From: an uncultured Latescibacterota bacterium
Lineage (GTDB): Bacteria; Latescibacterota; UBA2968
Direction of reading: 5' to 3'
Assembly: GCA_951812755.1 (NCBI GenBank)
Contig: OX638329.1
Location: 419,339 to 483,338, forward strand
Length of the DNA stretch: 64,000 nucleotides
This document shows positions 4,794 to 23,505 of this stretch, piece after piece. How positions within the stretch are numbered: the first letter of the stretch is position 1; every line of letters begins with the position of its first letter. The notes beneath the pieces were generated by a model, which saw only the letters and a program-made list of their open reading frames with translations, had not been told where the DNA came from and made no database searches. A program made the position numbers and the translations under genes.

Positions 4794-5127
4794 TGGGAGC
4801 TCCGGTTGGAATTAAAAACAAAAAGCAACCACACAAACCATAGAGAATACAGAGAAAAGCAGAGAAAAGCAAAGAAAAGAGAGAAAAGCAACAAAATAAG
4901 AACACAATAGGGCGTTATTGTTTAACTCTGGCACGGTATTTGCTTCAATTTTCATTCGGAACACAGAAAATACAGCGGGGGCGGTTGATTGCGTAACGTC
5001 AGATCATATAAGATAACGGAGAAAAATCGAATTAGAGCAAAGGGAGGTTTTGCCCATGAAATACCGTCGTAGGAGTCGCATCGCTACAAGGCATATGAGG
5101 CGCAGAACACAAAAGGAGATTCTACCC
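4794..5127. other. Divergent intergenic region between sulfatase and AAA+ operon
   Basis: The region holds an A-rich stretch (about 4812-4905) built from repeated AGAGAAAAGCA-type units. It is followed by the sigma-54 element at 4928-4945 and two successive ribosome-site/ATG units (5041-5058 and 5112-5130) leading into the AAA+ gene. Confidence 0.6.
4928..4945 (+). promoter_or_regulatory. Sigma-54 (RpoN) -24/-12 promoter for the AAA+ operon
   Basis: The sequence CTGGCACGGTATTTGCTT matches the consensus YTGGCACGN4TTGCW. The GG (4930-4931) and GC (4942-4943) doublets are separated by exactly 10 bp. It lies about 110-185 bp before the candidate start codons of the AAA+ gene. No clear activator site was found in the 130 bp upstream. 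Transcription would need a bacterial enhancer-binding protein that is not encoded in this window. Confidence 0.75.
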
Positions 5128-7935
5128 ATGATTGACAATGAAGACAGTCTATACATCAATGAATACAGCCTGTATATAAACCGCATCTACATGCTGAACG
5201 CACTTGGCAAAGTAAAGAGGGATCGAAGGGTACAAAAGGCAATACACGATTGGATCAGACACTATACTGATCCACTGGAAACACTGGCCCCTTCTCTCCA
5301 ACAGGAGTACGACAGGATATTTGATCTGAAGAGCAAACGAGATGATGACTGGTCAGAGCAAAACCAATTCTTCGACTACGCGGTAAAAACGCTTAAAGAG
5401 AACACACAACAGCAGCCCGCACCCTCCCCTGAAGAGATGGCAACCCGTCTCATTGTCCAGCGTTTTTCTTTAGGACCAGTGGCACACGCACTACTCACCC
5501 TGAGATGCTGTTATGAGTGTAATTATCTAACCCAAAACCTGTGGGATGAATTCTCTGATATCCATGACCATTTCACAGCGACCGCGACCTTGTTGGGCTA
5601 CGCGTGCGAAGAAGTCAAGGATGCGTTCCGCGAACTGGCCGATGCAGGTATTACTGACCTGGAAGATCTGCGCTCCAATCGCACTGATCCCACCGACTAC
5701 ACACATAAATATTTTTCCCGCGTATGGTATCCGCCCGTACGGGATTTGGACGAATTGGTGGCGCGTCTGGTCGGTCAGCCCTGTGAAGCCACGCTGCACC
5801 TGAGCGACTTCGCATACCTCGAGGATCGGGATGAAGCCGTGCGCCTGCTTCGCGCAGCTGTGCGAAAGCGGCACAAAGACATATCTACGCCGGGGATCAA
5901 TATCCTGTTGGTCGGGCGGGCAGGCACCGGGAAAACCGAATTTGCCAAAACCCTATCGCAGGCGGCTGGTACATCCCTCTTTTCCATCGGTGAGCCGAAC
6001 TGGGAAGATCAGGAACATTTCGACAGCGCAGCCAAGGCTGGCACCAGACGCCGCAACACTTTGTGCATGGCTCAAGTTCTCTTACGACCTGTTCCCGATG
6101 CCGCGATCTTGTGCGACGAGGCCGAGGATGTCCTGGATTCCATCCGGGGCACCCGCCTTATCAACCATCGCCTGCTGGAAAATACTCCTGTACCCGTGAT
6201 CTACACAGCCAATCGTCTGGATCACTTAGACGAAAGCATGTTACGGCGTTTCACATATATCCTCACCTTCACAGCCCACAGCCCGACCCGCCAAACCGCA
6301 ATTCTACAACAGATGTTGGAAAAAAGCAATATCGCGGGCATTGATGCGGCCGCCTGCGCACGGCGTCTCGTCGATCAACTCGAGTGTCCCCCTGGTCTTC
6401 TGGCACAAGCTATCGAAACCACCCGCCTCATCGGTGGTGGCGAGCGTGACATCTACCACTTTAGCGAGCGGCTGGAACGCACCATCGCCACACACAGTGC
6501 CCGTCCGCGTCTGGGACCTCCTATTAAGGCAAAGGTTCCGTGGACGGCATTTTCGCACCTCGGACAAGACGCGGACGCTGTGCGAGATACCCTTGCCGCA
6601 GTGATAGAGAAAAAAGAGAAGGGGATCAATATCCTCCTGTACGGACCACCGGGCACTGGCAAAACCGAATTTGCGCGCACCCTTTGTGGCGAGGTTGGCG
6701 CGCGCCTATACGCCATTGGTGAAAATGAAATCGGGCCACAAGCACGCCCGAGTGCAGGCCGGACAGAGACATTGGATTATGCCCTTGAAGCCTTGGCAGA
6801 CGAACCCAATGCCGCGATCCTCTTCGATGAGATGGAAGATTTCCGCCAGCCGCAAAAACATTGGCTGAACCGCATTGTCGAAGCAAACCCGGTGCCCATT
6901 ATCTGGACGTGTAACTCAATTGACTTCTACCGCATGTTTAAGTCGTTCTTCATCGACCGTATTCTATACGCCATCGAGTTCCGCCACATACCTGTTATCA
7001 GCCGAAAAACCGTTTATGCGGATATCCTGGACCAGGCGGGTATGTCAGATAGCGAGACCAGACAACTGGCCGAAGAACTGGCACACAAAAACACAGTGAC
7101 CCCTCGCCAGGTCACTTTAGCGACGAAACAGGCTGTTCTCGTGCGAGACCATTCCACCGGCGCGACAAAACGCAAACTCAGTGAGACCATCAAGCGCAAC
7201 ATTGATCAAAAAGAAAAACTGCGCTATGGCGTGCGTTCTCCCGACATGCTGCCCATTGCACAATACGACCCGGCCCTCATCCACGCCGATAAGGATCTCC
7301 CGACGCTGGTCGAGCGGATAGTCGCGCTTGACACGCGCCAAGTCTCGCTCTGCCTGTGCGGTCCTCCCGGAACGGGCAAAACGGCTTTTGCGCACTACAT
7401 CGCCGAGCAGATGGGCATGGATGTGTTATGCAAACGGGCATCCGATCTTTTGGACAAATTCGTCGGAGGAACCGAGCAACAGATCGCATCGGCTTTTGCC
7501 GAGGCTCTTGAGAAGAACGCATTTCTGATCTTCGACGAAGTGGATTCGCTTCTGATGGACCGGCAATCTGCCCAACGCAATTGGGAAGTGAGCATGGTCA
7601 ATGAATTGCTCAGCCAGATGGAGCGGCATCCCCTCCCATTTATCTGTACCACGAACCGGGGAGACAGCCTCGACGAGGCAGCCGCACGCCGCTTCCTGTT
7701 TCGCATCCAGTTTTACTTCCTGGATCGACCACACATTAACCGCGCCTTTGAATTGTTCTTCAACAGCAAAGCACCATCTTCGGCACTCGGGCTGACCAAA
7801 CTCACCCCCGCGGACTTTGCCAACGTGCGGAAGCGCGCAGAGGTCCTGGGTTTCATGGACAATCCCGAACACATCGCGCAGGCCCTCGCCGAAGAATGCC
7901 TCATAAAACCCGGCAACAGCCCGACTGGCTTCTGA
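5128..7935 (+). CDS. Triple AAA+ ATPase (SpoVK/COG0464-like) of unknown function
   Basis: The protein has about 935 residues with an alpha-helical N-terminal region (~1-230) and three AAA+ modules. Walker A motifs are GRAGTGKT (~262), GPPGTGKT (~506) and GPPGTGKT (~745). Walker B motifs are ILCDEAED, ILFDEMED and LIFDEVDSLLMD. Modules 1 and 2 share the pattern NR/NH-x-LLE-NPVPxIxTxN and look like duplicates. Module 3 is the standard C-terminal module with CTTN and a RRF arginine finger; module 2 seems to lack a clear finger. Relatives known to me have two modules. Start: ATG 5128 has AAAGGAG 9 bp upstream. An in-frame ATG at 5056 with AGGGAGG 8 bp upstream would add an Arg-rich 24-residue extension. 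It is the first gene of the sigma-54 operon with the TPR gene 20 bp downstream. The substrate is unknown; a remodelling role is inferred. Confidence 0.85.
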   Translation: MIDNEDSLYINEYSLYINRIYMLNALGKVKRDRRVQKAIHDWIRHYTDPLETLAPSLQQEYDRIFDLKSKRDDDWSEQNQFFDYAVKTLKENTQQQPAPSPEEMATRLIVQRFSLGPVAHALLTLRCCYECNYLTQNLWDEFSDIHDHFTATATLLGYACEEVKDAFRELADAGITDLEDLRSNRTDPTDYTHKYFSRVWYPPVRDLDELVARLVGQPCEATLHLSDFAYLEDRDEAVRLLRAAVRKRHKDISTPGINILLVGRAGTGKTEFAKTLSQAAGTSLFSIGEPNWEDQEHFDSAAKAGTRRRNTLCMAQVLLRPVPDAAILCDEAEDVLDSIRGTRLINHRLLENTPVPVIYTANRLDHLDESMLRRFTYILTFTAHSPTRQTAILQQMLEKSNIAGIDAAACARRLVDQLECPPGLLAQAIETTRLIGGGERDIYHFSERLERTIATHSARPRLGPPIKAKVPWTAFSHLGQDADAVRDTLAAVIEKKEKGINILLYGPPGTGKTEFARTLCGEVGARLYAIGENEIGPQARPSAGRTETLDYALEALADEPNAAILFDEMEDFRQPQKHWLNRIVEANPVPIIWTCNSIDFYRMFKSFFIDRILYAIEFRHIPVISRKTVYADILDQAGMSDSETRQLAEELAHKNTVTPRQVTLATKQAVLVRDHSTGATKRKLSETIKRNIDQKEKLRYGVRSPDMLPIAQYDPALIHADKDLPTLVERIVALDTRQVSLCLCGPPGTGKTAFAHYIAEQMGMDVLCKRASDLLDKFVGGTEQQIASAFAEALEKNAFLIFDEVDSLLMDRQSAQRNWEVSMVNELLSQMERHPLPFICTTNRGDSLDEAAARRFLFRIQFYFLDRPHINRAFELFFNSKAPSSALGLTKLTPADFANVRKRAEVLGFMDNPEHIAQALAEECLIKPGNSPTGF

Positions 7936-7955
7936 CTCTTAGGAAAGGACAGGTC

Positions 7956-8762
7956 ATGGATTTTTTAGATATTTTTGATCGAGACGAGAATGGCCCTGCC
8001 ATTGAAGACCTCACCAAAATTATAGAACTGAACCCGACTGATGTGGAAGCCTATAACAATCGCGGCAATGCTTACAGAGACAAAGGCGATCATGACCTGG
8101 CTATTGAGGACTTCAACAAGGCCATAGAACTGAATCCGGATTATGTGGAAGCCTATAACAATCGCGGCAAGACTTATAGATATAAAGGCGAGGATGATCT
8201 GGCCCTGGAAGACTTCAATAAGGCCCTGGAAGTAGCCCCGAATGATCCTGACGCCTATTTTAATCGTGGCAATGCTTACAGCGATGAAGGCGAGGATGAT
8301 CTGGCTATTGAGGACTTCACCAAAGCGATAGAACTAAACCCATACGACCAAATATACTATTACCTGCGTGGTTTTTGTTACGAATTTAAAGGCGAGAGTG
8401 CCCTGGCTATTGAAGACCACAGTGCGGTTATGGAACTGAACCCGGATAATCCTGACCCCTATTTCTATCGTGGCAAAATTTACAGGGATAAAGGCGCGTG
8501 TGACTGTGCTATTGAAGATTTCAACAAGGCCATCGAGCTATACCCGGATTACACTACGGCCTATTATTACCGCGCTGAAACGTGGTTACGCATGGGCAGA
8601 TGGAATAACGCCAGAGCAGATCTGACCCTTGTCAAGAGCAAGGGCATGGATATTATGAAGAGATTTCGTGAGAATTACAAAAATGTTGAGGAATTTGAGA
8701 AGAAGTATGATGTGAAATTGCCAGAAGACATCGCGGTGATGATGACACCAGAGCAGGCATAA
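7956..8762 (+). CDS. TPR-repeat protein
   Basis: The 268-residue protein consists almost wholly of tandem 34-residue tetratricopeptide repeats. About six units follow the pattern AYNNRGNAYRDKGDHDLAIEDFNKAIELNP. It is acidic and has no signal peptide, so it is probably a cytoplasmic protein-binding scaffold for its neighbours. The start is ATG 7956 behind AGGAAAGGACAGG. An upstream in-frame ATG at 7896 would overlap the AAA+ gene and add residues unlike a TPR. A 25-bp stretch covering the ribosome site and first codons (7943-7967) is repeated exactly at the next gene (8783-8807). Confidence 0.85.
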   Translation: MDFLDIFDRDENGPAIEDLTKIIELNPTDVEAYNNRGNAYRDKGDHDLAIEDFNKAIELNPDYVEAYNNRGKTYRYKGEDDLALEDFNKALEVAPNDPDAYFNRGNAYSDEGEDDLAIEDFTKAIELNPYDQIYYYLRGFCYEFKGESALAIEDHSAVMELNPDNPDPYFYRGKIYRDKGACDCAIEDFNKAIELYPDYTTAYYYRAETWLRMGRWNNARADLTLVKSKGMDIMKRFRENYKNVEEFEKKYDVKLPEDIAVMMTPEQA

Positions 8763-8795
8763 TCAGGGACGGAATCAATTATGAAAGGACAGGTC

Positions 8796-9839
8796 ATGGA
8801 TTTTTTAATGGAATCAGGGCTGTATAGCTTTCTCACGTACGATAACGAACATGATTGTGCGTTCATTTCGGCATATCGCACAGCACGAGATTGTGGGCAG
8901 GGCAAGAGATATACCAAAAGAGAAAACTTACAGCGAAGCACCAATTTGTTATACAAACTGATGAGCAGGCGTTATCGCGTGATATCGGTTTTGGGTCAGT
9001 TCAGAGATGGTAGGCAGGATTCTTCAGAGAGGACTTTTTTTGTTCTCAATCAGCGTGACAGTGAACAGTTTGCCGAGGATATCATTTCTTTTGGGGAGGA
9101 TTTTGAACAGGATGCTGTTCTGATTATTCCGAAAGGTGCGCTGCAAGGTAGGGGTAAGAGTCGAGCGTATTATGCCCGTACGAATGCGTGCGAGAACAAT
9201 TTTTTGCGATTGTTGAATAAAGAGAAAAAGTTCTTTGGTCGGACGCTTATAAACAGAGAGATTAAAGCCTTTTTTGCTCGAGTTGGTGGCAGAGACACCT
9301 GTTCTATAAAAGAAATAAAAGCTGTTACACAACATAGAGACGCTGCAAATAATATAGGTCTTGACTCTTTTCACCGACTGGGACAAGAAGATTGGGAAGA
9401 AACAGAAATTTGTTTATCCGGTTTTTCTCTTCAGGCTAAAAGAGAACCTCGTCGTGAGTTTTACATCCCATCTCAGGTGATTCCCGAGTATGTTGCCTGT
9501 GACGACGATGTGAATGACTTTATAGAAACGGTTATGGATGGATTCGGTGGACGGGATAACCTGTATCGCCTGATGGGTGCAAATGGTGAACGCTATGGTG
9601 TAGATTGGTATGGCAACTTCTGGATGTTGTTGCCGATGGTGCCGGGGGCAACGAATGGTGCATCTTATTGCTATATTACGTATTACCAGGATGATGATGT
9701 TTACACGGTGCGGTTTCTAAGTGGCAGACTGAATAGCCCAAATGATCTGTGGATTATTTCTGAGCACGTTGGTCTGTATATACACGAACTGAAACCCTTA
9801 TACCAGACGCAAACAGACTCTTATCTGCTGTTCGATTGA
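8796..9839 (+). CDS. Protein of unknown function in the triple-AAA+ operon
   Basis: The protein has 347 residues if started at ATG 8796, which shares its ribosome-site and first-codon block with the TPR gene; ATG 8781 is an alternative five codons longer. Residues ~20-120 contain a pattern seen in small phage/DUF3293-like proteins: an AYRTAR segment, a Leu-rich helix, YRVISVLGQFRD, an FFVLN strand, then a helix and QDAVLIIPKG. The C-terminal part (~190-347), with WYGNFWMLLP and aromatic-rich strands, is not recognised. No signal peptide or membrane segment is seen. It is the last gene of the operon, 33 bp after the TPR gene. Function is unknown; co-transcription suggests it is a partner or client of the AAA+ protein. 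Confidence 0.6.
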   Translation: MDFLMESGLYSFLTYDNEHDCAFISAYRTARDCGQGKRYTKRENLQRSTNLLYKLMSRRYRVISVLGQFRDGRQDSSERTFFVLNQRDSEQFAEDIISFGEDFEQDAVLIIPKGALQGRGKSRAYYARTNACENNFLRLLNKEKKFFGRTLINREIKAFFARVGGRDTCSIKEIKAVTQHRDAANNIGLDSFHRLGQEDWEETEICLSGFSLQAKREPRREFYIPSQVIPEYVACDDDVNDFIETVMDGFGGRDNLYRLMGANGERYGVDWYGNFWMLLPMVPGATNGASYCYITYYQDDDVYTVRFLSGRLNSPNDLWIISEHVGLYIHELKPLYQTQTDSYLLFD

Positions 9840-10085: not shown

Positions 10086-11942
10086 CTACAAGGCGAGAGC
10101 GTCATCCTGCTGTAAAAATTTCGCTGCCATTTGCCCCCAGTCAACACGAACCCTCTCGAGGCCTCTAGCCAAGTCAACACCAGCCTCTCGCTCATAACGC
10201 GCCCACGCTGCGAAGACAATCTTTGTGGCATTAACCGCTCTTAATAGGCATTCAATTACCTCGCTTGTGGAGAGATCATCCACATCCTCGTCGTCGGTCA
10301 CAATTGTGCCAAAGATGTCGTCGAAGGCAAGGTGTTTTCTATTGAAGACTATTTCCGTAATATTCCCCTTCATTTCAACGTTAAATAGGTTGAACGAATC
10401 GGGAAAATCTGCTTCCACAAATACCATCTTCAAATCTGCATCCTTGATTAGAGAAACTAGTTTCTCAGCATCAGATTCGCTGTAATTCTTGTTCTGGGTG
10501 AGATCATTACGGATATCGCTAAGGTCGCTTTCTGTCGGCGGCTTTTTATCCTCCTCAAGTGGTTGTTCCTTAGACCGATTCTCCCACCCTTTGTTAGCGG
10601 TCTTTGTTGCATCGTCGGCATCATTATGACGTGTCCTTCTACTTGACCGCCCTCCCGATCCTTGGGCCTTGATCTGTTTACGTAACTGATCGAGATTGCG
10701 CTTGATGCTATTACTCAATTTAAGCAACCATCCGCGAGGATCTTCGTCATCTTTGAGGCGATTCACGACATCAATAAATCCTTCGCCTTCTTCTGCGAGA
10801 TCCTCCCAATCTGTTATCGCCAATTCAGAAAAATGAGTGGCAGCTTGCTTGTTATTTGTTACGCCGAACACCTCATCAAGATCGGGAGGAAATTCAATCT
10901 CGGCACCCCACCAACGTTCTCGTGTGTCATAACTAAGGCACCACCCGGAGTCAAGCATAATCTCACGATCTGCACGAAGCACTGAAACACCGGTATTTTG
11001 GGCTGCATGTTTCCCATACACCGTTTGTCCTCGGTTACGCAAACTAGTATCAATTTTCGTATTCTTCGATGCTAATGAATAGCGCATCCTTACCGTATGG
11101 ACTTTTCCGTCATACTCAATTTCCTCTTCATCATCGAACACATGATCGAACATCGGCTGTATATCGAATGGTGAGGGCAAAGCCCGAGTGGGCACAAGAT
11201 AAAGAGGATCGTTTACTTCCGTTTCTCGATCAATTAGCATGTCCTTTCCACCATTTTCTACCGCGAACAACCTAATTTTCACTTTTTCATCACTAATAAA
11301 GCGTCTATATACGCGGCCAGCGATTTCCTCTGTACGGAGCAACGCGAGGTCAGATCTTTTCCATGTCAGTCTTTCAAAGTCTAAATTTGACCAAACCACT
11401 AAGGTGCCGTGTCGTCCAACATGATCGGAAAATCTTCGCCAAGGCTCAGGCATGGGATCATGCGTCGGCTCTGGTACTTCAGTCATGTTTTCTTTTTCTA
11501 TCTTATTGAGGTCAATAAAAGTATGGATCGCGTTATCGGGTCCATTCTGCCAACTCCAAACATCTACCTTTCTAGCTTGTGAGATTGACGCATTAGGAAG
11601 TCCCATTCCGAAGCGCCCAATGCCGCTTCGGTCATCAAGGCGGGTGCCATTACCAAATTGTAGTGCCATCCTCAATGTGTGTGCATCCATACCCGATCCA
11701 TTGTCGAGTACCGCAATTTTCCAAAGCCTTCGGACTTCACGGAGCCGCACACGCTCACGTTTTTCAATACACATTACTTCGATCATTGAGGCCCCTGCTT
11801 GTACTGCATTGTCAATCAACTCTGCGAGTGCGTAGGCTGTATTTTTGTATCCAGAATCACGCATCGCAGTTATGGCGAGATGCGGAGGGATGATCTGAGC
11901 GCTGAATAAGTCTCTTTGTTCGATTTTATCATCTTGGTACAT
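10086..11942 (-). CDS. GHKL (Hsp90/MutL-type) ATPase of the defence island
   Basis: The protein has 618 residues. The N-terminal Bergerat ATP-binding fold is clear: N-box ELIDNAVQAG (41-50), G1 DNGSGMD (80-86) and G2 GIGRFGMGLPNA (~108-119). The middle and C-terminal regions are not recognised; a charged low-complexity linker (~440-500, GGRSSRRTRHND) separates them from the tail. The start is ATG 11942, behind GGGAGG at good spacing and overlapping the PLD-helicase stop by 14 bp; an upstream ATG at 11981 would make a larger overlap. It is the last gene of the island operon. GHKL ATPases work as ATP-gated clamps in several defence systems and in MutL repair. Here it probably partners the helicase, by context. 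Confidence 0.85.
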   Translation of the reverse strand: MYQDDKIEQRDLFSAQIIPPHLAITAMRDSGYKNTAYALAELIDNAVQAGASMIEVMCIEKRERVRLREVRRLWKIAVLDNGSGMDAHTLRMALQFGNGTRLDDRSGIGRFGMGLPNASISQARKVDVWSWQNGPDNAIHTFIDLNKIEKENMTEVPEPTHDPMPEPWRRFSDHVGRHGTLVVWSNLDFERLTWKRSDLALLRTEEIAGRVYRRFISDEKVKIRLFAVENGGKDMLIDRETEVNDPLYLVPTRALPSPFDIQPMFDHVFDDEEEIEYDGKVHTVRMRYSLASKNTKIDTSLRNRGQTVYGKHAAQNTGVSVLRADREIMLDSGWCLSYDTRERWWGAEIEFPPDLDEVFGVTNNKQAATHFSELAITDWEDLAEEGEGFIDVVNRLKDDEDPRGWLLKLSNSIKRNLDQLRKQIKAQGSGGRSSRRTRHNDADDATKTANKGWENRSKEQPLEEDKKPPTESDLSDIRNDLTQNKNYSESDAEKLVSLIKDADLKMVFVEADFPDSFNLFNVEMKGNITEIVFNRKHLAFDDIFGTIVTDDEDVDDLSTSEVIECLLRAVNATKIVFAAWARYEREAGVDLARGLERVRVDWGQMAAKFLQQDDALAL

Positions 11943-14349
11943 ACCAAACATCCTCCCAATTGGTAAACGCCTCGACCACATTGCCGAAGCCAGCTAAATC
12001 AATGTCAACAACAGTGGAAATCGCACAGGTTTTGTTGCCTCCTGCCTTGGGTCCTCGCGTTGCACGCCCTACCATTTGGCTGAACAACACGAGAGATCTT
12101 GTTGGGCGGGCAATCACTGCTGCGCTCGTATTCGGTGCGTCAAATCCTGTCGTTAGAACGCCGAAATTGCACAGAACCATAGGCGTTGTAGAATTTGTTC
12201 GAAATGCGCGGATAATTTGGTTGCGAGCAGTTTTTCCTGTGTTGCTAGTGACAACTCGCCCATCAATTCCAGTAGCAGACAGTACCACCGCTAGAAGCTC
12301 AGCGTGTTGTACCGACGCACCAAATAGTATTATCCGTCTATGTCCTTCTTCTATCAACCGGTATATTTCATCAATAATGATAATATTTCGGTCTACTTGT
12401 TTGGCAATGGAGTCCAAAAGTGACGAATCATAATCATCGCCTTTCCCTGCTTTGTTCAGATTCGGTTTAAGTTCAGAGGTAGCTTCAAATTCAAGGCGCT
12501 GAAACGTTGGTCGTGCCAAATATCCTTGCTCCATGAGATAAGAAACCGGATCGTCCCATCCCGCAACGTCGAGCATTACTTTTTGTCCTCCAAAAAAAAC
12601 GGCAAGCTGTTCATCAGCAGCGATATCAGACCAGGTGCGTCCCGGTGTTGCTGTCAAGCCCATGAGGGCATTATTATTTCCTGTCTCAGCCAAAGTGTCG
12701 ATTATTTCCCGATAAGTTGGCGCAATTGCCTGATGGGCCTCATCAACGATGACGAGCTTGACCGACTTCGCGAGTCGCAAAAACTCGAGGGGATCCCTCG
12801 CCTTAAACGCATGCATTTTTTGTAGCCCAGCAATTATTAGCCCATCTGTAATGTCAGATAGGTCCGGTGCGTAATCTCCCCAAAAACGCAGGATGTCGAT
12901 CTTCCGATTGCCGAGCCGTGACCAAGAATTTTTGAAAGCGTCGGCTGCTTGATCGAGTAATTCCGCACTCGTAGCTAGCCAAACGACAACGGATGGCTCA
13001 TAGGCAGTCATAAACCGGCTAATGATGTGCATTGCTGTTCTCGTCTTACCAGCACCAGTAGGCATGTGGAGCACAACTCGTTCATAGCCGCCTTCAATGA
13101 CATTCCACACACGGTTAGCTGCGTGCCGTTGATGCGGGAACAATCCAAACTCAGGCAGAACCCCTTCCCGATCAGGTTCAACCGTGAAAGGAACCGCTCC
13201 GTGCGTATCGATTCCGAAGAACCCCAAATAGGTTTGCCAGATCTTGGCATTCTCGGTTGGATCCAGAGTGCGAACAGCATTGACATCTATAACACCTAAC
13301 CTGCCTGCTAACTCCCTGAGCTTTTCTGACGATGTGGCATTGAAGCAAATCTCTCGGATATCACTACGAGCCATTAGAACGTCAGCTTGATTACGCAGCA
13401 TGTCAGTTGCACTTTTGCGAAGTGTTGCAACTCTATCATCAGGACTAGAAAGCATTTCGATAAGTGAGACAACATCTTCTCCCAATACCGTGCATAACTC
13501 ATCCACACTCAAGCGGTCCACGATTTCATCTATATCTTGCCCGGGACCACTACTATAGAATGTAGCCATTGATGACTCCCTAATTGATGACTGCCTATTG
13601 GAAGATTCTGCTACCAATCCCGTTGCCTTCTTATAAAGTACACGCCAGTCTGCCTCTGTTGGCGGAGCATTGTATCGATAAGTCTGTAATAGCCGTTCCT
13701 GAATAGCCTGTGGCATCCCAATGACGACACAACTATCTTCTTTGTTTTCCCAAAGCTGTTCAAACTGATCGCAAAATTTTTTAGTGATAAAGAGTTGCCT
13801 GGAATCTTCCCAAGATTTGTCCACAGATACTTGCTCAATATTTTTCCAGATACCCGCCAAGGTAAAATTGCTTGACCCATGCGCGGCCATTATTTCGTCA
13901 TCTTTATAAAAAAGCCACACTTTCGTGTGGAAAAGCGCGTTATTCATCAGCGCGATCTTAATTTTAATACGGCCTTTACGAATTAACCATGAGAGACATT
14001 TCAAAGTATGCTGTTGCAGAATGTCCTCAGTAATAATCAGTTTTTCCAAAATATCGTGTGCGATATCTTCCGTAGACCTCACGCCTTCTTCGATTGCAGC
14101 CTGATCTTCAGGACGTAACAGAGGGCTAATGATCAGGCGAAAACTGTTTTGTGTAGCGTTTATGTACGTCGCCAAACCGGGCGCAAGAGATGAGAGAGCC
14201 TCGCTCGAAAAGAACCCGGCCATACAGTCAACCCTAGCGGCGTTTTGAAACCCAGGAATGAGCACTTCTTCAGCGAGAGGTTCTTTGGGCAATAAGTAGA
14301 GTGGCCGAATGTCCGGTGCTAAGATATCTCTCAATTTCACTTCAGACAT
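11929..14349 (-). CDS. PLD-nuclease-like domain fused to SF2 (DEAD/DEAH) helicase
   Basis: The protein has 806 residues. The N-terminal domain carries a phospholipase-D-type half site: H141-T-K143 in FHTKVWLF, then GSSNFT (158-163). This fits an HKD nuclease that needs dimerisation or is degenerate. The C-terminal superfamily-2 helicase has Q-like FPHQRHA, motif I MPTGAGKT (429-436), motif II DEAH (536-539), motif III TATPG (~566) and motif VI VGRATRG near the end. Such PLD-helicase fusions are typical of restriction and anti-phage loci. Upstream on the minus strand lie an IS element and the DGQHR gene; downstream the GHKL gene overlaps it. The ribosome site is weak (AGAGAA). The IS may have separated it from the operon promoter. 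Confidence 0.85.
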   Translation of the reverse strand: MSEVKLRDILAPDIRPLYLLPKEPLAEEVLIPGFQNAARVDCMAGFFSSEALSSLAPGLATYINATQNSFRLIISPLLRPEDQAAIEEGVRSTEDIAHDILEKLIITEDILQQHTLKCLSWLIRKGRIKIKIALMNNALFHTKVWLFYKDDEIMAAHGSSNFTLAGIWKNIEQVSVDKSWEDSRQLFITKKFCDQFEQLWENKEDSCVVIGMPQAIQERLLQTYRYNAPPTEADWRVLYKKATGLVAESSNRQSSIRESSMATFYSSGPGQDIDEIVDRLSVDELCTVLGEDVVSLIEMLSSPDDRVATLRKSATDMLRNQADVLMARSDIREICFNATSSEKLRELAGRLGVIDVNAVRTLDPTENAKIWQTYLGFFGIDTHGAVPFTVEPDREGVLPEFGLFPHQRHAANRVWNVIEGGYERVVLHMPTGAGKTRTAMHIISRFMTAYEPSVVVWLATSAELLDQAADAFKNSWSRLGNRKIDILRFWGDYAPDLSDITDGLIIAGLQKMHAFKARDPLEFLRLAKSVKLVIVDEAHQAIAPTYREIIDTLAETGNNNALMGLTATPGRTWSDIAADEQLAVFFGGQKVMLDVAGWDDPVSYLMEQGYLARPTFQRLEFEATSELKPNLNKAGKGDDYDSSLLDSIAKQVDRNIIIIDEIYRLIEEGHRRIILFGASVQHAELLAVVLSATGIDGRVVTSNTGKTARNQIIRAFRTNSTTPMVLCNFGVLTTGFDAPNTSAAVIARPTRSLVLFSQMVGRATRGPKAGGNKTCAISTVVDIDLAGFGNVVEAFTNWEDVWYVPR

Positions 14350-15515: not shown

Positions 15516-17810
15516 CTACAGCCCGGTTCTTAAGCGTTTGACCATATCTTTTTCGTTTTCAATAGTTTCTAAACTTGCTTTTAGGTGATTAAGTGCTCTT
15601 TTTCTCGCATCTGCCTTGCGAGTGGCCTGAAGCTCTTCAATACTCTGCCGGATTTGTTCTTCAGTTTTTTTTGCTCCTCTAGCTTCAGATTCCGTGCGCA
15701 TTCTGAGGTTCTCAAAATCCGGATCTTCTACATAAGCTTTAACTGCATCCTCAACATACTTTTTTTCCCGTTCTGATATAATCCCAACTACTATCCTGGG
15801 AATTGTTTTTTTGTAACATTCTAGTGCCCATTTGCTATCCATCTGTTTCATTTTTTCTTTAGCAACGTCCCAGCAAATGGGCGAGTGAATAATCTCTAAG
15901 ATGGCATAGCGAAAAAATCGCCACTGTCGTTCATTTAATTCATTAACATTCATTGCAAGGAGTCCCCGAAGCCCTATAGAATTTGCGTCAAAAACCAATG
16001 CTGTTCTTGATTCGAGTATGTCCATGTCGCCAGTCCGGGGCCGATGAGTCTCATTTTCCTGTGGAGAAAAGTATCTGTTGAGAGCAGTGAGATAGACCTC
16101 TGTTACAAAGTGGACAAGCTTGCGTCTTTTTTTATACTTAAAGGAAGATGAATCCGATTGGTTGCGTTTCAGTTCCTCAACGATGGTAAAAATAGCCATG
16201 GCATAACCGAGTTGAAAAGCCTGGGTTGATATGGTTTGAAAAAGTTTTCGGGCTCGCTCTTCCAGTTTTTTTTTCTCACTCTGATTGTCGTTGTCCTCGC
16301 TATAAAACAAGTCATAGTTTATACTGAAAAATCTACAGGCTCGACGGCGCTGGAATATACTTTCGTGCTGATTAAGTGTTCTCTCGACAGATTCGCAGAA
16401 CTTGATCTGAGGCTGTAAATGATCCGCCTTTTCCTCTTTCAGACGCATAAAATGCGATTCAAAGACATTCCGAACCCCGCTTCCCTCAAAAATTAGGGTG
16501 TAAGCTTCCTTCTGTTCCTTCTGAGATCGAGCTTGCGGATCTGAAAGTCTCGTTTTCAAATTTTTTAGTTCGTTATTATGAATCTCAAAAGGGCGAAATT
16601 TATCAAAAAGATTTACTAAGGTTTTATCTGCAAGTCTGCCTAGTTTTTTTACTATTTCGTCCACTTCGTGCGGCGGATACGATTTGCCAGAGTTGTATTC
16701 TAAAGGATCAAGGTGGTCAACATCTGTCCCAAGCAAAATTTCGGGTGAACGGTTTTTGTTTTGGGTCCTACGACCATCCGAAATATCATGATAGTCATCT
16801 ATTTTAAATGCTTCTGGAGCGCCAAAAGAGACTGCCCGATGTATTTTATGTAGCGCAATTGCACTGCTATATTTGAGCCGTCCAGAAACCACCTCTTTTT
16901 GCCCAATTTTCGTGTCTGAATCCTCATAAGAAATTGAATAGATTCGTGCAGATCCAGCATGTTCTTCGCCGCGATTTTTGAGCGTGGAGAGAGTTTGCCG
17001 CATAAGATGGGCAGCGATATCTTCGTCGTCTAATAAGAGCTCACGAGATTCACTAACACGCTTGGCACTACGATTTACGACTATAAATATTTCTCGACAG
17101 ATAGAACTTAAATCAATACCCTTTTTTTGCAAATCTAAGTTACCTTCATGTAAATCTGGAAAGTATATAATGCATGTTGGTAATTCAATACTTTTGACTT
17201 GTTTAGGAGTCACCGAAATATGATCATAATAAGGTGCAAAAGGTTTGTCTCCCCAAGTGTTAGTCAGTTGGCGATGTAGAGCTAGTACTGCCATGGCTCG
17301 GTGTTGACCGTCAACAATGATAAAAGCAGAACGTTGGCTGTTATAACTCAAGCTTGCCAACGGAGTGGCCTGTTCACCCCACTTGAGTTGCTCGAAATCA
17401 AATAACTCTCCGTACTTCTCAATCAATTTCTCTTGGACCTTAGGTTTCGGATAAAACCGCTTAATCCCTGCTCCGACTTGTTTGCGGGGGACAATTACTG
17501 CTAGAATTGGAGGGAAAAATTTTGCTCTGTTTCCTGATTCTCCGAGTAGATATGGGATGAGATCATGTGCGACTCTTGAATCGTCCAAATCTCGCTGTAA
17601 TAACTCATCGAAACTCAATTCTTCAACATTAAAAACCTCACGCCAAGGCATCATTTGGGATGCAAGCAGACATTCCGGCGTACCTTCATTTCCAGGCCTG
17701 ATCTTAGTTAGAATGTATTTTGCCCGAATGGTATTTGAGTCATCTCCAATGGTAAATTCGCCAAATGAGCCAAAAACTGAAGTCTTTTGTACACCAAATG
17801 TATTTGACAT
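15516..17810 (-). CDS. DGQHR-domain protein (DndB-like) of the phosphorothioation island
   Basis: The 764-residue protein has the hallmark DGQHR motif (167-171 in FIIVDGQHRAMAVLAL). It is followed ~80 residues later by FIVVNRSAKRVSES, the second conserved block of DGQHR/DndB-type proteins. In Dnd systems DndB is a DNA-binding regulator; SspE-type effectors also sense phosphorothioates through a related DGQ(Q)R motif. No HNH/DUF1524 nuclease motif is obvious in the C-terminal half, so an SspE orthologue is not supported. The C-terminus is a long charged coiled-coil-like region. It starts 5 bp past the GIY-YIG gene stop, and its own stop abuts the right target duplication of the IS, so the reading frame is intact. 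Confidence 0.8.
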   Translation of the reverse strand: MSNTFGVQKTSVFGSFGEFTIGDDSNTIRAKYILTKIRPGNEGTPECLLASQMMPWREVFNVEELSFDELLQRDLDDSRVAHDLIPYLLGESGNRAKFFPPILAVIVPRKQVGAGIKRFYPKPKVQEKLIEKYGELFDFEQLKWGEQATPLASLSYNSQRSAFIIVDGQHRAMAVLALHRQLTNTWGDKPFAPYYDHISVTPKQVKSIELPTCIIYFPDLHEGNLDLQKKGIDLSSICREIFIVVNRSAKRVSESRELLLDDEDIAAHLMRQTLSTLKNRGEEHAGSARIYSISYEDSDTKIGQKEVVSGRLKYSSAIALHKIHRAVSFGAPEAFKIDDYHDISDGRRTQNKNRSPEILLGTDVDHLDPLEYNSGKSYPPHEVDEIVKKLGRLADKTLVNLFDKFRPFEIHNNELKNLKTRLSDPQARSQKEQKEAYTLIFEGSGVRNVFESHFMRLKEEKADHLQPQIKFCESVERTLNQHESIFQRRRACRFFSINYDLFYSEDNDNQSEKKKLEERARKLFQTISTQAFQLGYAMAIFTIVEELKRNQSDSSSFKYKKRRKLVHFVTEVYLTALNRYFSPQENETHRPRTGDMDILESRTALVFDANSIGLRGLLAMNVNELNERQWRFFRYAILEIIHSPICWDVAKEKMKQMDSKWALECYKKTIPRIVVGIISEREKKYVEDAVKAYVEDPDFENLRMRTESEARGAKKTEEQIRQSIEELQATRKADARKRALNHLKASLETIENEKDMVKRLRTGL

Positions 17811-18484: not shown

Positions 18485-19291
18485 CTACAAATGACAAATC
18501 GCGCAACCCTCAGCCTCATCAATCACGGGCAAGGGTTTGAGCGGCTGATTTGCAATGTCGTCTAAGGTTTTCCCATCCACCCAGGTAAATTTCTTGCCAT
18601 CCTTCACCTGTTCGTATTCCTTTGCTTTCTCGAACAAATCGGGGTGTTCTTCCTTTAACCTCTGCCACTCCCCAATCTGCTGATAAAAGCAAAAGTAGCA
18701 CCCTGACCGCGATCGCCATTTGTAATACTCAGGCAATCCCAACCCAGACTCTTCCAGAATCTGCACAATATCCGATAGGCCAAGCCCATCGTCCTTAAAC
18801 GGATAAACGGGAATAATATTGGGCTGCTGGGAAATCGAGGGTGGCTTTTTTGCGATGTATCCATCCCGGTCTTCGTCGCCGCGGATACCAATATAGCTAT
18901 ACGCCCGGCTATCGCCAACATAATCTTCAAAAGGTTCAATTTTTAGCACGCGCGTACACCACCGCGATCTCGGGCTGGGCAAATATCCACTGTATATCTC
19001 ATTCAAATACATATCAAACGGATTGCGCCCGGGCTTCTTCTCTACGTCTAAACCGTCGAGCGCGTTTAGACGGTGAATATCTACGCCAAGCAAAGCCTCT
19101 AAGCACTCCAAATACTCGTACGTTTCATCTAATTCACATCCGGTATCACAGAAAACATACTCCGCAGAGATTTGGGGATAATTCTGCCGCATATAAATAG
19201 CAAGTGCTGCGGAGTCTTTGCCCCCTGAAACACTGACGATATGCCGGATGTCATCAGACTGATTGTTCAACGCCTCTTGTATGGTCGCCAT
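18485..19291 (-). CDS. sspD: PAPS-reductase-family protein (DndC/SspD-like)
   Basis: The 268-residue protein has the ATP-pyrophosphatase PP-loop SGGKDS (22-27). It also carries scattered cysteines able to hold an iron-sulfur cluster: FCDTGCE, RWCTRV, GCYFCFYQ and the terminal GCAICHL. This combination is typical of DndC/SspD proteins, which activate the DNA backbone for sulfur insertion using sulfur mobilised by the cysteine desulfurase. The start is ATG 19291 with GGGAGAAG upstream, overlapping the ATPase gene by 38 bp; an upstream frame to 19360 gives no family-like sequence. It is the fourth gene of the sspABCD-order operon. Its last 27 bases are duplicated at 14371-14397. Confidence 0.85.
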   Translation of the reverse strand: MATIQEALNNQSDDIRHIVSVSGGKDSAALAIYMRQNYPQISAEYVFCDTGCELDETYEYLECLEALLGVDIHRLNALDGLDVEKKPGRNPFDMYLNEIYSGYLPSPRSRWCTRVLKIEPFEDYVGDSRAYSYIGIRGDEDRDGYIAKKPPSISQQPNIIPVYPFKDDGLGLSDIVQILEESGLGLPEYYKWRSRSGCYFCFYQQIGEWQRLKEEHPDLFEKAKEYEQVKDGKKFTWVDGKTLDDIANQPLKPLPVIDEAEGCAICHL

Positions 19292-22200
19292 GTAAATCTT
19301 CTCCCGTGTTGTCTTCAAGAATATGTGTAAACAACTCACGCGCTTCATCCGGACCAACAATATCTGTCAAACGTTCATACAATATATTCATGCGTTCTTG
19401 TACCAAATTTGACAAACCATTTTTGACTGCGCCACTTGCCTTGAATTCAAACGACAAAGCGGATTCCTCAATACGTCTCACCACACTATGAATTTCCTGA
19501 TCAAAATTTGCGATATAGCTATCATCCCATCGGTTAATCGTCTTTTTCAGTAGCAAGCCCGAAAGTGAATCAACAAGTTTGGCATCCGATGTATAAGACA
19601 TACACATCCGAGACAATAGCCCCTTTGACACGCTATCATTTAGTGCAGCAGATATTTCATCGGGAAAACACAATGCCCAACGGCGGGCTATTTCCTTTAC
19701 CTCCCCGTTTTCAGATTTCCAGTTCAAAGATAGCGCACGGCGCAAAGAAGAAATTGCCTTTTGTTGGTAACTGTCAATGACTTCAGAGAGTTCATCTTTG
19801 CATTTTTTGAGTGATTCCAATAACACATGTTGCTCATCAATTGAGCAGTCCAATGCCGTTGGAATGCGCTCAAATAGCAGTCGCACCGGATCAGACTGCT
19901 GACAAAGTGCTATTTGGAAGTGACGAGTTTGCTGTGTCAAATATCTCGTGGAAAGTGCGCCAGCAGGAAGCCCTGCCTTCCAGTTTTCAAGCGCGTCATA
20001 GCAGGCTCGGATGAGATCATTTCCTGTTGCTGATCTTACTTGAGTATCAAAGAGTTCGAGAACAGAGTTAAGATAATCGCGTTTGGTCTGATCAATATCT
20101 AAAACAATAAATTCATACTCTTTCGGTTCACGACATAACTGCTCAATCTCAGAAGGCAAAATATCAGATACGTAACCTCCCCCCTTATAGCGTAGCGAAT
20201 ACACACTGGGAAACGCTTTGAGACCTGCGGCAAAGAGAATAGGGAGCAAACCAGCGCGAATCCCAAAAGGTGGTTCCATCAGTTCATCAAAGAGATCTGG
20301 GATATCCTTGGGCTTTTCCGATGAATCTGTGAAAAACTGCTGAATCCTGCTCCACACCTTTTGAAGCCCAGGATCTCCAACCCGATCAGGTAAAGCGTAT
20401 TTCCAACCCTCTCCCTTATCAGTGTAATATAGACCTGTATGCAAGAGAATGGTTCGGAACATAGACGCTTCCGGGGGACTGCCTTCTATACCCAGCATCT
20501 CCTGACCTGAACGCTCAAGAATACCGAGCAAGAGCTTCTTACGCGAATTGACCAAAGTAGGAGTAGGCTTGTGTCGAACAATCATCTCATTATTGATCTT
20601 GGGAGTATGGAGGAAAATTTTCTGCATGATCTCGGACAACTCATTCCGCAAATCATAAGCATTTTTAACTTGTAACTCACTCCCCTTGTAAAACCAGCGC
20701 GGCCCTTCACTACCCGGCAGAATCAACCGATCGAGGAGCTTTTGAAGATAGGTACGAGCATCATCTGTCATTTGTTGAATTTCAGACAACACCATCGGAT
20801 CTGATCCCACCAGCTTATCATCCCCCTGCATCTGAATTAAACACCACACTTCCAAAGCTGCCTCAAACAGAGGGATAGGAGCCTTAGGCATCGCAAAAAT
20901 AATCCGTTCATCGCACTGGTATTTAGAAGCCTGATGCTCTGCTACCTGAAGTTCCTCCGCTGTCTCAGCAATCACATATATAATTTTCCCATCACATCCA
21001 ACAGTCATATTCAGGTATTCGTCCAATTTTTCTAGACTACAATACTCTCCCTGGAGAAAACGCCTGATATGGAAGTCACTGTTATATCTGACTGGCCGCC
21101 AGACAGGAGGACTGGCTTCATCAGTCAAAAAAGTAATAAAATCGAATGTTCTCCGCTGCCGAGATCTCTCTTCTTCGAGCCTACCCCGAAGGTCGGCATC
21201 CGTCCCATGCCACACAGAAACTTCATCACTATGTTTTCTGTGTAAAAGGAGTTTCTTATCTATGAGTTCAGCAACAACCACTTCTTCTTGCAGTGATCCA
21301 TTATTGACTCCCTCAGCACCTGCATAGCCGCGCAGAGCAAATAGTAGCAAATCGCGGGGCGTGCGGGACCGCTCACCACTTACACCAAAACCCAACAGAC
21401 TTGCAGTTCTCAACGCCGTTGCCGCCAAACCATTATCATCGTCCAGCTTTGAGAGAGCATTCTGTGTTTCAAGCCATTGTCTATATGTTCCGCCTACAGC
21501 TGTATCTGTACGCATCTCCGGTGAAAAGTATTCATAGAGATGATCCGGTCTAACATGATTTTGAAAGTCTATGAAATTGAGGAAACTGAACAGTGTCCTT
21601 TCGTTCTGCGCGACCCGACCAGAAATGCGCGGTAGCAAATACAAAGTGGTGGGTTCCAGGGGATATGCACGGAGCAAGAGCGACTGGAGTTCTGATACAG
21701 TAAAGTCGGAAAATAATCCAAGTTGCTTGCACTCTTCCGCAGACCACTTGGACTGTTCATCAGGCAAGATATTAGAGCAATTCTGTTCGGAAACCACTTC
21801 TGATAGCAAACGGTATATTTCCTTGCTATCGTCGATATACTGGATGGTCTGGAAACGACCCTCAATTTTTCTCCATTCTGCACGAACCGAAGCAGGTGAG
21901 TTGCTCGCATATTGCAACAACTCCTGATGCAACAACAATCCGAGTGTTACGGGAATAGCCGTAGACCGACTCACACACTCAGCCAACAATTGAATTTCAC
22001 TCAAAGCGGCAGAACGCCCCTCGGCAATCAAAGACTCTATATGGCGTCCAAACTCATCCCATAAAATCACAACCCGATCACAGCCTGCAGCACGCGCCTT
22101 TTCCCGAACCGCGACGAGCAATTCTATCGCCTGATCAATCGTCTCACACGGCATGGATTCAATTGTACGCGCTTGACGACCGAGCTTCATGCGCCCCATC

Positions 22201-22610
22201 CCTTTGAGCGCAGCATCCTTCAGACTCTCGCCCAAATTTTGACAATAACCCTGCAATGCCAGCACAAGCCCTTTGTCTTTCCCTTTGCGACGCTCTTTGG
22301 CAAACTTACTCAAATCTGGACTAACTACTTCCAACTTGTCTTCAACAACAGATAGTGTTTCATCGGCATCGGGGCGATTCTCAACCAAATGCAACAAATA
22401 GGTCGCTGTAATTGATTTCCCCGTGCCATAGGGCGCAACAACAAAAAAGGCTCGATCAGGCGTCTGGCCCGCGAGTGCATTGAGTAGCGACACACTCTTG
22501 GCCGTAGGCTGGTAGTGTGCAATCCGATTCGGATATTCTGCATCGTATTGTATGTTGATAGAACGCAGAAATACTTCAGCATCAAATTTGGCTGTTATTT
22601 CAAGCTGCAT
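19254..22610 (-). CDS. sspC: Large P-loop ATPase (SspC-like)
   Basis: The 1118-residue protein has an N-terminal P-loop domain: Walker A APYGTGKS (59-66) and Walker B VVILWDEFGRH (~180-190). A long helical remainder has no motif I recognise. In the Ssp system the third gene is a large ATPase needed for single-strand phosphorothioation. Position, size and P-loop fit, but this is assigned mainly by gene order. It overlaps the DUF4007 gene by 11 bp upstream and the PAPS-reductase gene by 38 bp downstream, so the operon is tightly coupled. It is not an SMC-type DndD, which would show long coiled coils around a hinge. Confidence 0.8.
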   Translation of the reverse strand: MQLEITAKFDAEVFLRSINIQYDAEYPNRIAHYQPTAKSVSLLNALAGQTPDRAFFVVAPYGTGKSITATYLLHLVENRPDADETLSVVEDKLEVVSPDLSKFAKERRKGKDKGLVLALQGYCQNLGESLKDAALKGMGRMKLGRQARTIESMPCETIDQAIELLVAVREKARAAGCDRVVILWDEFGRHIESLIAEGRSAALSEIQLLAECVSRSTAIPVTLGLLLHQELLQYASNSPASVRAEWRKIEGRFQTIQYIDDSKEIYRLLSEVVSEQNCSNILPDEQSKWSAEECKQLGLFSDFTVSELQSLLLRAYPLEPTTLYLLPRISGRVAQNERTLFSFLNFIDFQNHVRPDHLYEYFSPEMRTDTAVGGTYRQWLETQNALSKLDDDNGLAATALRTASLLGFGVSGERSRTPRDLLLFALRGYAGAEGVNNGSLQEEVVVAELIDKKLLLHRKHSDEVSVWHGTDADLRGRLEEERSRQRRTFDFITFLTDEASPPVWRPVRYNSDFHIRRFLQGEYCSLEKLDEYLNMTVGCDGKIIYVIAETAEELQVAEHQASKYQCDERIIFAMPKAPIPLFEAALEVWCLIQMQGDDKLVGSDPMVLSEIQQMTDDARTYLQKLLDRLILPGSEGPRWFYKGSELQVKNAYDLRNELSEIMQKIFLHTPKINNEMIVRHKPTPTLVNSRKKLLLGILERSGQEMLGIEGSPPEASMFRTILLHTGLYYTDKGEGWKYALPDRVGDPGLQKVWSRIQQFFTDSSEKPKDIPDLFDELMEPPFGIRAGLLPILFAAGLKAFPSVYSLRYKGGGYVSDILPSEIEQLCREPKEYEFIVLDIDQTKRDYLNSVLELFDTQVRSATGNDLIRACYDALENWKAGLPAGALSTRYLTQQTRHFQIALCQQSDPVRLLFERIPTALDCSIDEQHVLLESLKKCKDELSEVIDSYQQKAISSLRRALSLNWKSENGEVKEIARRWALCFPDEISAALNDSVSKGLLSRMCMSYTSDAKLVDSLSGLLLKKTINRWDDSYIANFDQEIHSVVRRIEESALSFEFKASGAVKNGLSNLVQERMNILYERLTDIVGPDEARELFTHILEDNTGEDLHGDHTRGVEQSV

Positions 22611-23505
22611 GCTGATCTCTCCATTGGATCATATCGTAGTGATTTCTCAACCAATCAACGGGTTGCATTCGCCGAATGCGTATTCTTCTGTCTCCAGCAA
22701 GACCGTCCACCTGAATGTGCTTATTTGGGTCCGTTTCTTCTGCATGAAGAGCAAGCGATAATAGGGATTCACTCGTCAATACAAATGCTCTGCCTGGACC
22801 GCCCGGGCGCGTTACTGCCTCTCTCACGGATATATCGAATGTATCTTGTCCTGTCCTCGCTTCCTCAAATGCCCTGGAAAGGGCATAGCCCAATAAATGA
22901 GTAGGAATCTCCTTCTCCCCTTGATGCACCTGGTAATATCCTGATGTGCGAAAATTGCTCAATAACCCCAATTCGACGAATGGACATTCGAGAGCGTCTT
23001 CCGGGTCTTTGTTCTCTGTTGGGATAACCCTGGAATAGCTCTGCAACAGACAAGCAACATCTCGATCAATGGTATTTTGACTGGGTGGTCGAGATCGTAA
23101 GTTTTCTACATAACGCAATAGACGATCTCTGCACATAGACCTTTCAAATCGAGAGAGACTAAAATCATTGAAGAACCATGACCAGGTAAACACTTGATCT
23201 CCAGCATTCACCAGATTAACGTGCAAAGCCCACCATGTCCCAATATCAATAAAATATTGGTCTCGCTCATAAATAAGCTGGCCAAGCTCTGTTTTTTCCA
23301 ATGGAGACTGGCGCCGTTCGCGCTCAGCCAATCCCGTTACCTCCAGCCAGTGGCGAATAGAACGAGACATATTTTTTCCAACGCCGAGAAAATCGGCGAC
23401 ATATTCATCATATAGCAACTCGGGTTCCTCAATCAGCAACTTAAGCCCCTTGTGAAGCCATCCCTCTCGAATTGCAAAAGTTTCGTGCCCACTAAATTTC
23501 ATCAT
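22600..23505 (-). CDS. sspB: DUF4007 protein (SspB-like)
   Basis: The 301-residue protein begins with the DUF4007 signature FSGHETFAIREGWLHKG, followed by a helical, Arg/Glu-rich body with PxE/DxPxE-type segments (PTENKDPEDALECPF). DUF4007 proteins accompany DNA phosphorothioation genes; SspB is described as the nickase that opens the DNA strand for sulfur insertion. The start ATGATG overlaps the desulfurase stop (ATGA), and the stop overlaps the ATPase start. No classical nuclease motif is readable by eye. Confidence 0.8.
   Translation of the reverse strand: MMKFSGHETFAIREGWLHKGLKLLIEEPELLYDEYVADFLGVGKNMSRSIRHWLEVTGLAERERRQSPLEKTELGQLIYERDQYFIDIGTWWALHVNLVNAGDQVFTWSWFFNDFSLSRFERSMCRDRLLRYVENLRSRPPSQNTIDRDVACLLQSYSRVIPTENKDPEDALECPFVELGLLSNFRTSGYYQVHQGEKEIPTHLLGYALSRAFEEARTGQDTFDISVREAVTRPGGPGRAFVLTSESLLSLALHAEETDPNKHIQVDGLAGDRRIRIRRMQPVDWLRNHYDMIQWRDQHAA

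Follow-up and report, generated by a model that had tools for sequence, protein, structure and literature searches.

A three-module Cdc48-type AAA+ protein encoded behind a sigma-54 promoter element in an uncultured Latescibacterota bacterium

Judged by its sequence, the AAA+ protein P0001 derives from a widespread, unnamed bacterial family of double-AAA (Cdc48-type) proteins and has three modules where they have two; it is an unusual example of a ring being duplicated and its catalytic features split. Its unfoldase class is well supported. We give roughly an even chance to the reading in which sigma-54 drives an operon whose main product, a Cdc48-type AAA+ unfoldase of three modules, is induced by stress or damage, acts on a protein or RNP substrate and is accompanied by lineage-specific cargo. 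The window, the whole stretch of 64,000 nucleotides analysed here, comprises positions 419,339 to 483,338 of OX638329.1 (GCA_951812755.1). The host is an uncultured Latescibacterota bacterium whose genome is a single contig of 6.53 Mb, and its relatives are Candidatus Latescibacterota MAGs. The features of the operon are as follows.

4929-4944, + strand: sigma-54 promoter element TGGCACGGTATTTGCT (4928-4945 as CTGGCACGGTATTTGCTT), 12/12 consensus, kept in the relative L004
5056-7935, + strand: three-module AAA+ protein P0001, 959 aa (ORF, Pfam AAA)
5056-5127, + strand: arginine-rich N-terminal tail MKYRRRSRIATRHMRRRTQKEILP of P0001 (from the sequence)
5161-5769, + strand: all-helical N-terminal domain, residues 36-238 (AlphaFold2 model, pLDDT there mostly 75-92)
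5800-6495, + strand: AAA module 1, Walker A GRAGTGKT, Walker B ILCDE, RR finger kept
6541-7227, + strand: AAA module 2, Walker A GPPGTGKT, Walker B ILFDE, ancestral RR pair lost (FFIDR)
7297-7905, + strand: AAA module 3, the ancestral C-terminal module, pore loop KFVGGTE, Walker B LIFDE, RR finger
7943-7967, + strand: 25-bp RBS and start block GAAAGGACAGGTCATGGATTTTTTA, identical to 8783-8807
7956-8762, + strand: TPR protein P0002, 268 aa (Pfam TPR_1, 3.2e-51)
8783-8807, + strand: second copy of the 25-bp RBS-start block, identical to 7943-7967
8796-9839, + strand: P0003, 347 aa, with an N-terminal S-AdoMet-lyase-family domain (PF23780 and alignment with T3 SAMase)
8841-9134, + strand: SAM-lyase core, P0003 residues 16-113, with G67, F69 (Tyr position), E78, Q105 and D106 at ligand positions

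Promoter and operon layout

The promoter, which the first-pass annotation had called near consensus, matches TGGCACG-N4-TTGCW perfectly, and shuffling the upstream sequence 200 times never gave a match as good. The element is intact upstream of the orthologous, 90%-identical operon in L004, and near-matches (9-11/12) are found upstream of the paralogues L046, L005 and L006. Transcription of the operon is predicted to start at about 4955-4957. Across the genome TGGCAC-N5-TTGC occurs 103 times, compared to 11 for the reversed control, an approximately tenfold excess that is partly inflated since about a dozen of the 103 matches fall within a repeated IS. This repeated element, at L127, L128 and four more places in the genome, carries a 452-aa transposase-like ORF and two convergent sigma-54-like matches 644 bp apart.

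The TPR and 347-aa genes lie as close behind the AAA+ gene as had been noted, with gaps of 20 nt and 33 nt. Comparison with L004 indicates purifying selection on all three genes (dN/dS 0.21, 0.24 and 0.19 for the ATPase, TPR and 347-aa genes, respectively). In L004 the two RBS-start blocks likewise resemble each other; the blocks look as if they have been kept alike within each genome.

Anatomy and ancestry of the ATPase

The gene for P0001 contains two in-frame RBS-ATG pairs, at 5056 and about 5128, of which the first is favoured because the reading frame from 5056 is conserved in L004. Basic N-terminal tails similar to that of P0001 occur in L005, L006, L046 and L008/L009. In the AlphaFold2 single-chain model (pLDDT 76.5, 18 sequences) the helical N-domain is followed by three alpha/beta AAA cores with lids, and Pfam AAA matches three stretches of the protein (1.6e-45). 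The three Walker A/B pairs already seen in one chain are all intact, with Walker A at residues 287 (GRAGTGKT), 530 (GPPGTGKT) and 769 (GPPGTGKT) and Walker B at residues 350, 587 and 823. As is typical of Cdc48-type proteins, the tandem modules carry Walker A, Walker B and a sensor-1 Asn, and an aromatic pore loop 1 is present, as KFVGGTE in module 3 of P0001 and as KWVGETE in its relatives.

By profile, the best solved relatives of P0001 are VAT/Cdc48/p97, NVL, AFG2 and Rix7. The best folds for the model are Rix7, NVL, p97 and Cdc48, a likeness at the level of domains only; the TM-scores are low because the packing between domains is uncertain. P0001 shares with the type II AAA proteins (Cdc48/p97-VAT, Rix7/NVL and AFG2) tandem classical AAA modules, Walker A/B motifs throughout and the aromatic pore loop of the C-terminal module. 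It differs from them in that an all-helical domain is predicted to replace the Cdc48 N-domain, in that its N-modules are without the usual aromatic pore loop, and in having three modules, by duplication. Its score against the CDC48 model TIGR01243 is 86.9 bits (cut-off 802.65); falling short of the family score and with an N-domain predicted to be unlike that of Cdc48, P0001 is therefore Cdc48-like rather than Cdc48.

The likeness of modules 1 and 2 reported earlier is borne out by a tree of 75 modules, in which those of the three-module proteins pair as sisters (support 0.997) within the group formed by the N-terminal modules of the two-module proteins. The third module groups with the C-terminal modules of two-module proteins, and the split between N- and C-terminal modules has a support of 1.000. 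This placement indicates that the N-terminal module was duplicated in an ancestor with two modules. Module 1 then acquired a GRAGTGKT P-loop and retained the RR finger pair; in module 2 a GxPGTGKT P-loop stayed, but the RR pair is gone in all the three-module proteins examined. Since the first copy kept the arginine-finger pair and the second lost it while keeping Walker A/B, the roles of the two rings have probably been divided.

In the mechanism that we propose, sigma-54 and some enhancer-binding protein would switch the operon on under stress. P0001 would then assemble into stacked hexameric rings, with its helical N-domain and its Arg-rich tail bringing in a protein or RNP as substrate. 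The module 3 ring would grip and thread this substrate via its aromatic pore loop (KFVG), with the duplicated N-modules adding a ring with divided catalytic features. The TPR protein is a possible adaptor, and P0003, with its SAM-lyase-type domain, may act independently on SAM-like ligands.

Companion genes and the neighbouring island

P0003 had been left as an unrecognised protein, a description that no longer stands. Residues 38-113 match PF23780 (1.2e-7, 32.2 bits versus a cut-off of 28), as does the L004 orthologue (33.3 bits). G67, E78 and Q105 align with T3 SAMase and are equivalent to Gly56, Glu69 and Gln104 in the numbering of Svi3-3, in the structure of which the ligand residues were identified (PMC7877911); the register of the alignment at T3 Glu67/Glu68 is uncertain by one residue. 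The N-domain resembles the phage SAM/SAM-AMP lyases (T3 SAMase, Svi3-3; PMC7877911, PMC12255297) in its Gly, Glu, Gln and acidic ligand residues, but has Phe at the Tyr58 position, where the phage relatives have Tyr, and P0003 has an extra C-terminal part of 230 residues. In the model of P0003 (pLDDT 39.5) the order of strands and helices fits a PII-like beta-alpha-beta-beta-alpha-beta arrangement, though the model is too weak for a firm fold, and the top PDB match is the phage SAM lyase 6ZM9, itself weak (E 0.025); a sequence search of solved structures with P0003 gave no match. On this evidence the N-domain belongs to the S-AdoMet lyase family, and cleavage of SAM or SAM-AMP is putative.

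The relatives of P0003 are phage proteins, from viral contigs (31-33%) and from Microcystis, Alishewanella, Lak and Campylobacter phages, and are PF23780 members where tested. Beyond L004, no further bacterial relative was found. Hypothetical or unannotated phage proteins of the S-AdoMet lyase family (PF23780) are present at L043-L045, L121 and L122, and the P0003 family points to unannotated phage proteins as candidate SAMases or SAM-AMP lyases.

The relatives of P0001 share the ATPase and not its two companions, contrary to the conserved neighbours for which a homolog search had been suggested and in line with the refuting condition set at that time: of the 47 genomes of the class, just two, the window's and L004, have the TPR and 347-aa genes together with the ATPase. 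A conserved three-gene system is ruled out by these neighbourhood data, the TPR protein and P0003 being absent from other relatives. Tight spacing, a single promoter, the 25-bp start block common to both downstream genes and purifying selection on all three would suit a true three-component complex, in which the TPR protein bridges the ATPase to P0003; however, with the set confined to those two genomes and P0003 so isolated among bacteria, we consider such a complex improbable. The TPR protein and P0003 are lineage-specific passengers or cargo and would be co-expressed from the same promoter.

The 'defence island' beside the operon is an Ssp island, which comprises the following.

10089-11981: MzaB-like GHKL ATPase
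11932-14349: PbeA-like helicase
15519-17810: weakly DndB-like protein
18488-24683, - strand: SspA-SspB-SspC-SspD phosphorothioation set
24716-24701, - strand: sigma-54-like element AGGCACGAATTTTGCT, matching at 11/12 and lying 33 nt before SspA begins

From this last element, the Ssp operon may also be driven by sigma-54.

An anti-phage defence operon has also been considered, in which the AAA+ protein would be the effector or sensor (as for IetA, TRIP13-type or CoCoNuT Cdc48-like proteins) and P0003 would destroy SAM or SAM-AMP during infection. The best PADLOC/NCBIfam matches of the ATPase are indeed to IetA, of the IetAS anti-phage system, with which P0001 has a related AAA core, but they cover the generic core only. 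P0001 itself was rejected as an IetA (92.3 bits, far below the cut-off of 510); its neighbours are a TPR and a SAM-lyase-type protein, with no IetS protease. The phosphorothioation island with its PbeA- and MzaB-like genes adjoins the operon, but the paralogue locus lies outside the island. The family of P0003 is linked to phage and to type III CRISPR, but no type III CRISPR gene was found among the window genes examined. Plasmid relatives of the ATPase neighbour HEPN, RecB/UvrD-type and helicase genes, yet there is no conserved effector partner. Overall, we regard a defence operon as unlikely.

Family neighbourhoods and the link with RNA repair

A family profile, A1, was built from 16 two-module proteins. 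Among the genomes sampled, it detected members in 18 of 249 of the order Sphingomonadales (that of L015), 22 of 369 of the class Gammaproteobacteria (that of L019), 27 of 297 of the order to which L010 belongs and 13 of 64 of the window's own phylum; no NCBIfam or Pfam model names the double-AAA family. Gene neighbourhoods were surveyed at 93 loci using crude ORF calls, with lineages (42) set at 50% identity. WYL-domain regulators were found near the ATPase at 26 of these loci, in 20 of the 42 lineages, ADP-ribosylglycohydrolases at 11 loci and HEPN-annotated proteins at 9; the WYL and HEPN marks come from single seeds, are crude and probably undercount. Marks of RtcR in L006 and L087, and of Pnkp in L050, L052, L054 and L055 (short phosphatases), are probably spurious. 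CARF/WYL regulators (PMC4012209) and ADP-ribosylglycohydrolase systems with WYL regulators (PMC9503650) have been described. A DUF2779 protein lies a few kb from the ATPase at 11 of the 93 loci, in both Latescibacterota and Proteobacteria (for example L005:16556-18034 and L046:1616-3070).

Within Latescibacterota, nine genomes with no more than 1-4 WYL genes apiece place one next to the ATPase, at 10 loci that are not all independent, and both the two-module and three-module clades show this adjacency. The exceptions are L049 and the window-type operon (the window, whose ATPase copy has no adjoining WYL gene, and L004); L054 and L055 end early. In L051 there are two tandem units of WYL gene, variable gene(s) and two-module ATPase, one directly followed by an ADP-ribosylglycohydrolase; the variable genes tested had no Pfam match. 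L008 and L009, MAGs labelled Gemmatimonadetes and Acidobacteria, share one three-module ATPase locus down to identical neighbours, which casts doubt on the taxonomic label or binning of at least one of them.

Many relatives (e.g. L010-L018 and L101-L111) have unrelated, vertically inherited neighbours. Such stable housekeeping contexts in several lineages, together with the scarcity of RtcB in ATPase-bearing Latescibacterota described below, would fit a general proteostasis unfoldase, a bacterial analogue of Cdc48 with no special link to RNA or phage, whose regulators vary as the gene moves. Nevertheless, WYL, RtcR, ADP-ribosylglycohydrolase and HEPN genes have come to lie near the ATPase in one separate lineage after another, far more often than gene counts would allow, and we hold this explanation to be rather unlikely. 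For the preferred reading of an induced unfoldase, these neighbourhoods supply the link to stress or conflict. The earlier suggestion of a stress- or phage-induced remodelling set accordingly survives as a triple-module AAA+ remodeller under sigma-54 control, linked to stress or conflict by its relatives' neighbourhoods, not by the adjacent island, and fails as one conserved three-gene set; the first-pass observation is confirmed and its interpretation partly supported.

A connection with RNA repair is seen in five two-module relatives (L015, L016, L021, L022 and L066), in which the ATPase gene comes after an RtcR / Rsr-RtcB-(RlaP)-RtcA operon. Rsr was marked in three of these five loci, and the operon of L015 was identified with Pfam and NCBIfam. 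In Sphingomonadales the sigma-54/RtcR RNA-repair operon closes with the ATPase gene. RtcR signalling is by tRNA fragments with cyclic ends, and the Salmonella rsr-yrlBA-rtcBA operon has no such ATPase (PMC7790460). In L019, a single case, Hen1 and Pnkp lie upstream of the ATPase, and on plasmid pFW12EY RtcB is just downstream of it, with a WYL gene near. Our literature search, which was non-exhaustive, found no paper describing this ATPase in Rtc operons; an earlier report is possible. CoCoNuT type III-A loci contain a Cdc48/SpoVK-like tandem ATPase with Walker motifs intact in the C-terminal module only (PMC11090510). Like P0001 it is a Cdc48-like protein of bacteria with tandem AAA modules; it belongs to an RNA-conflict locus, and CoCoNuTs have in other places been linked to RtcR-like regulators. 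P0001, in contrast, has Walker motifs in all three modules and no McrBC-type partner was seen. A Cdc48-like ATPase in RNA-conflict loci therefore has precedent.

The window has a sigma-54 promoter in common with the RtcR-regulated rsr-rtcBA operon (PMC7790460), but searches of its genome for RtcR and RtcB found neither. RtcR is thereby ruled out as the activator of the window's promoter, as is a partnership with RtcB in this host; the combination of RtcR-sigma54 with RtcB/RtcA in the locus is confined to the five two-module loci. Among the 47 genomes of the class, RtcB is rarer where the ATPase is present (2 of 13, compared to 18 of 34 without it; p = 0.02, uncorrected for kinship). The RNA-repair association therefore belongs to the relatives, and an RNA-repair role cannot be assumed for the window's host. 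The safest description of P0001 is as a Cdc48-type remodeller whose family has repeatedly come under damage-sensing regulators.

A broader and more tentative possibility is that a Cdc48-type unfoldase of bacteria takes part, so far unrecognised, in the RNA-damage response and is induced with or alongside RNA repair via RtcR or WYL regulators. It would take apart damaged RNPs or ribosomes bound by toxins and so clear the way for repair, the third, duplicated ring having evolved in Latescibacterota. The RNA-repair targets of Rtc systems, and the helpers that expose damaged RNA ends within RNPs, are still-open questions in the field. The ATPase that ends the RtcR operon in Sphingomonadales, and that is found elsewhere beside Hen1-Pnkp and WYL genes, is a testable candidate helper for Rtc-type repair.
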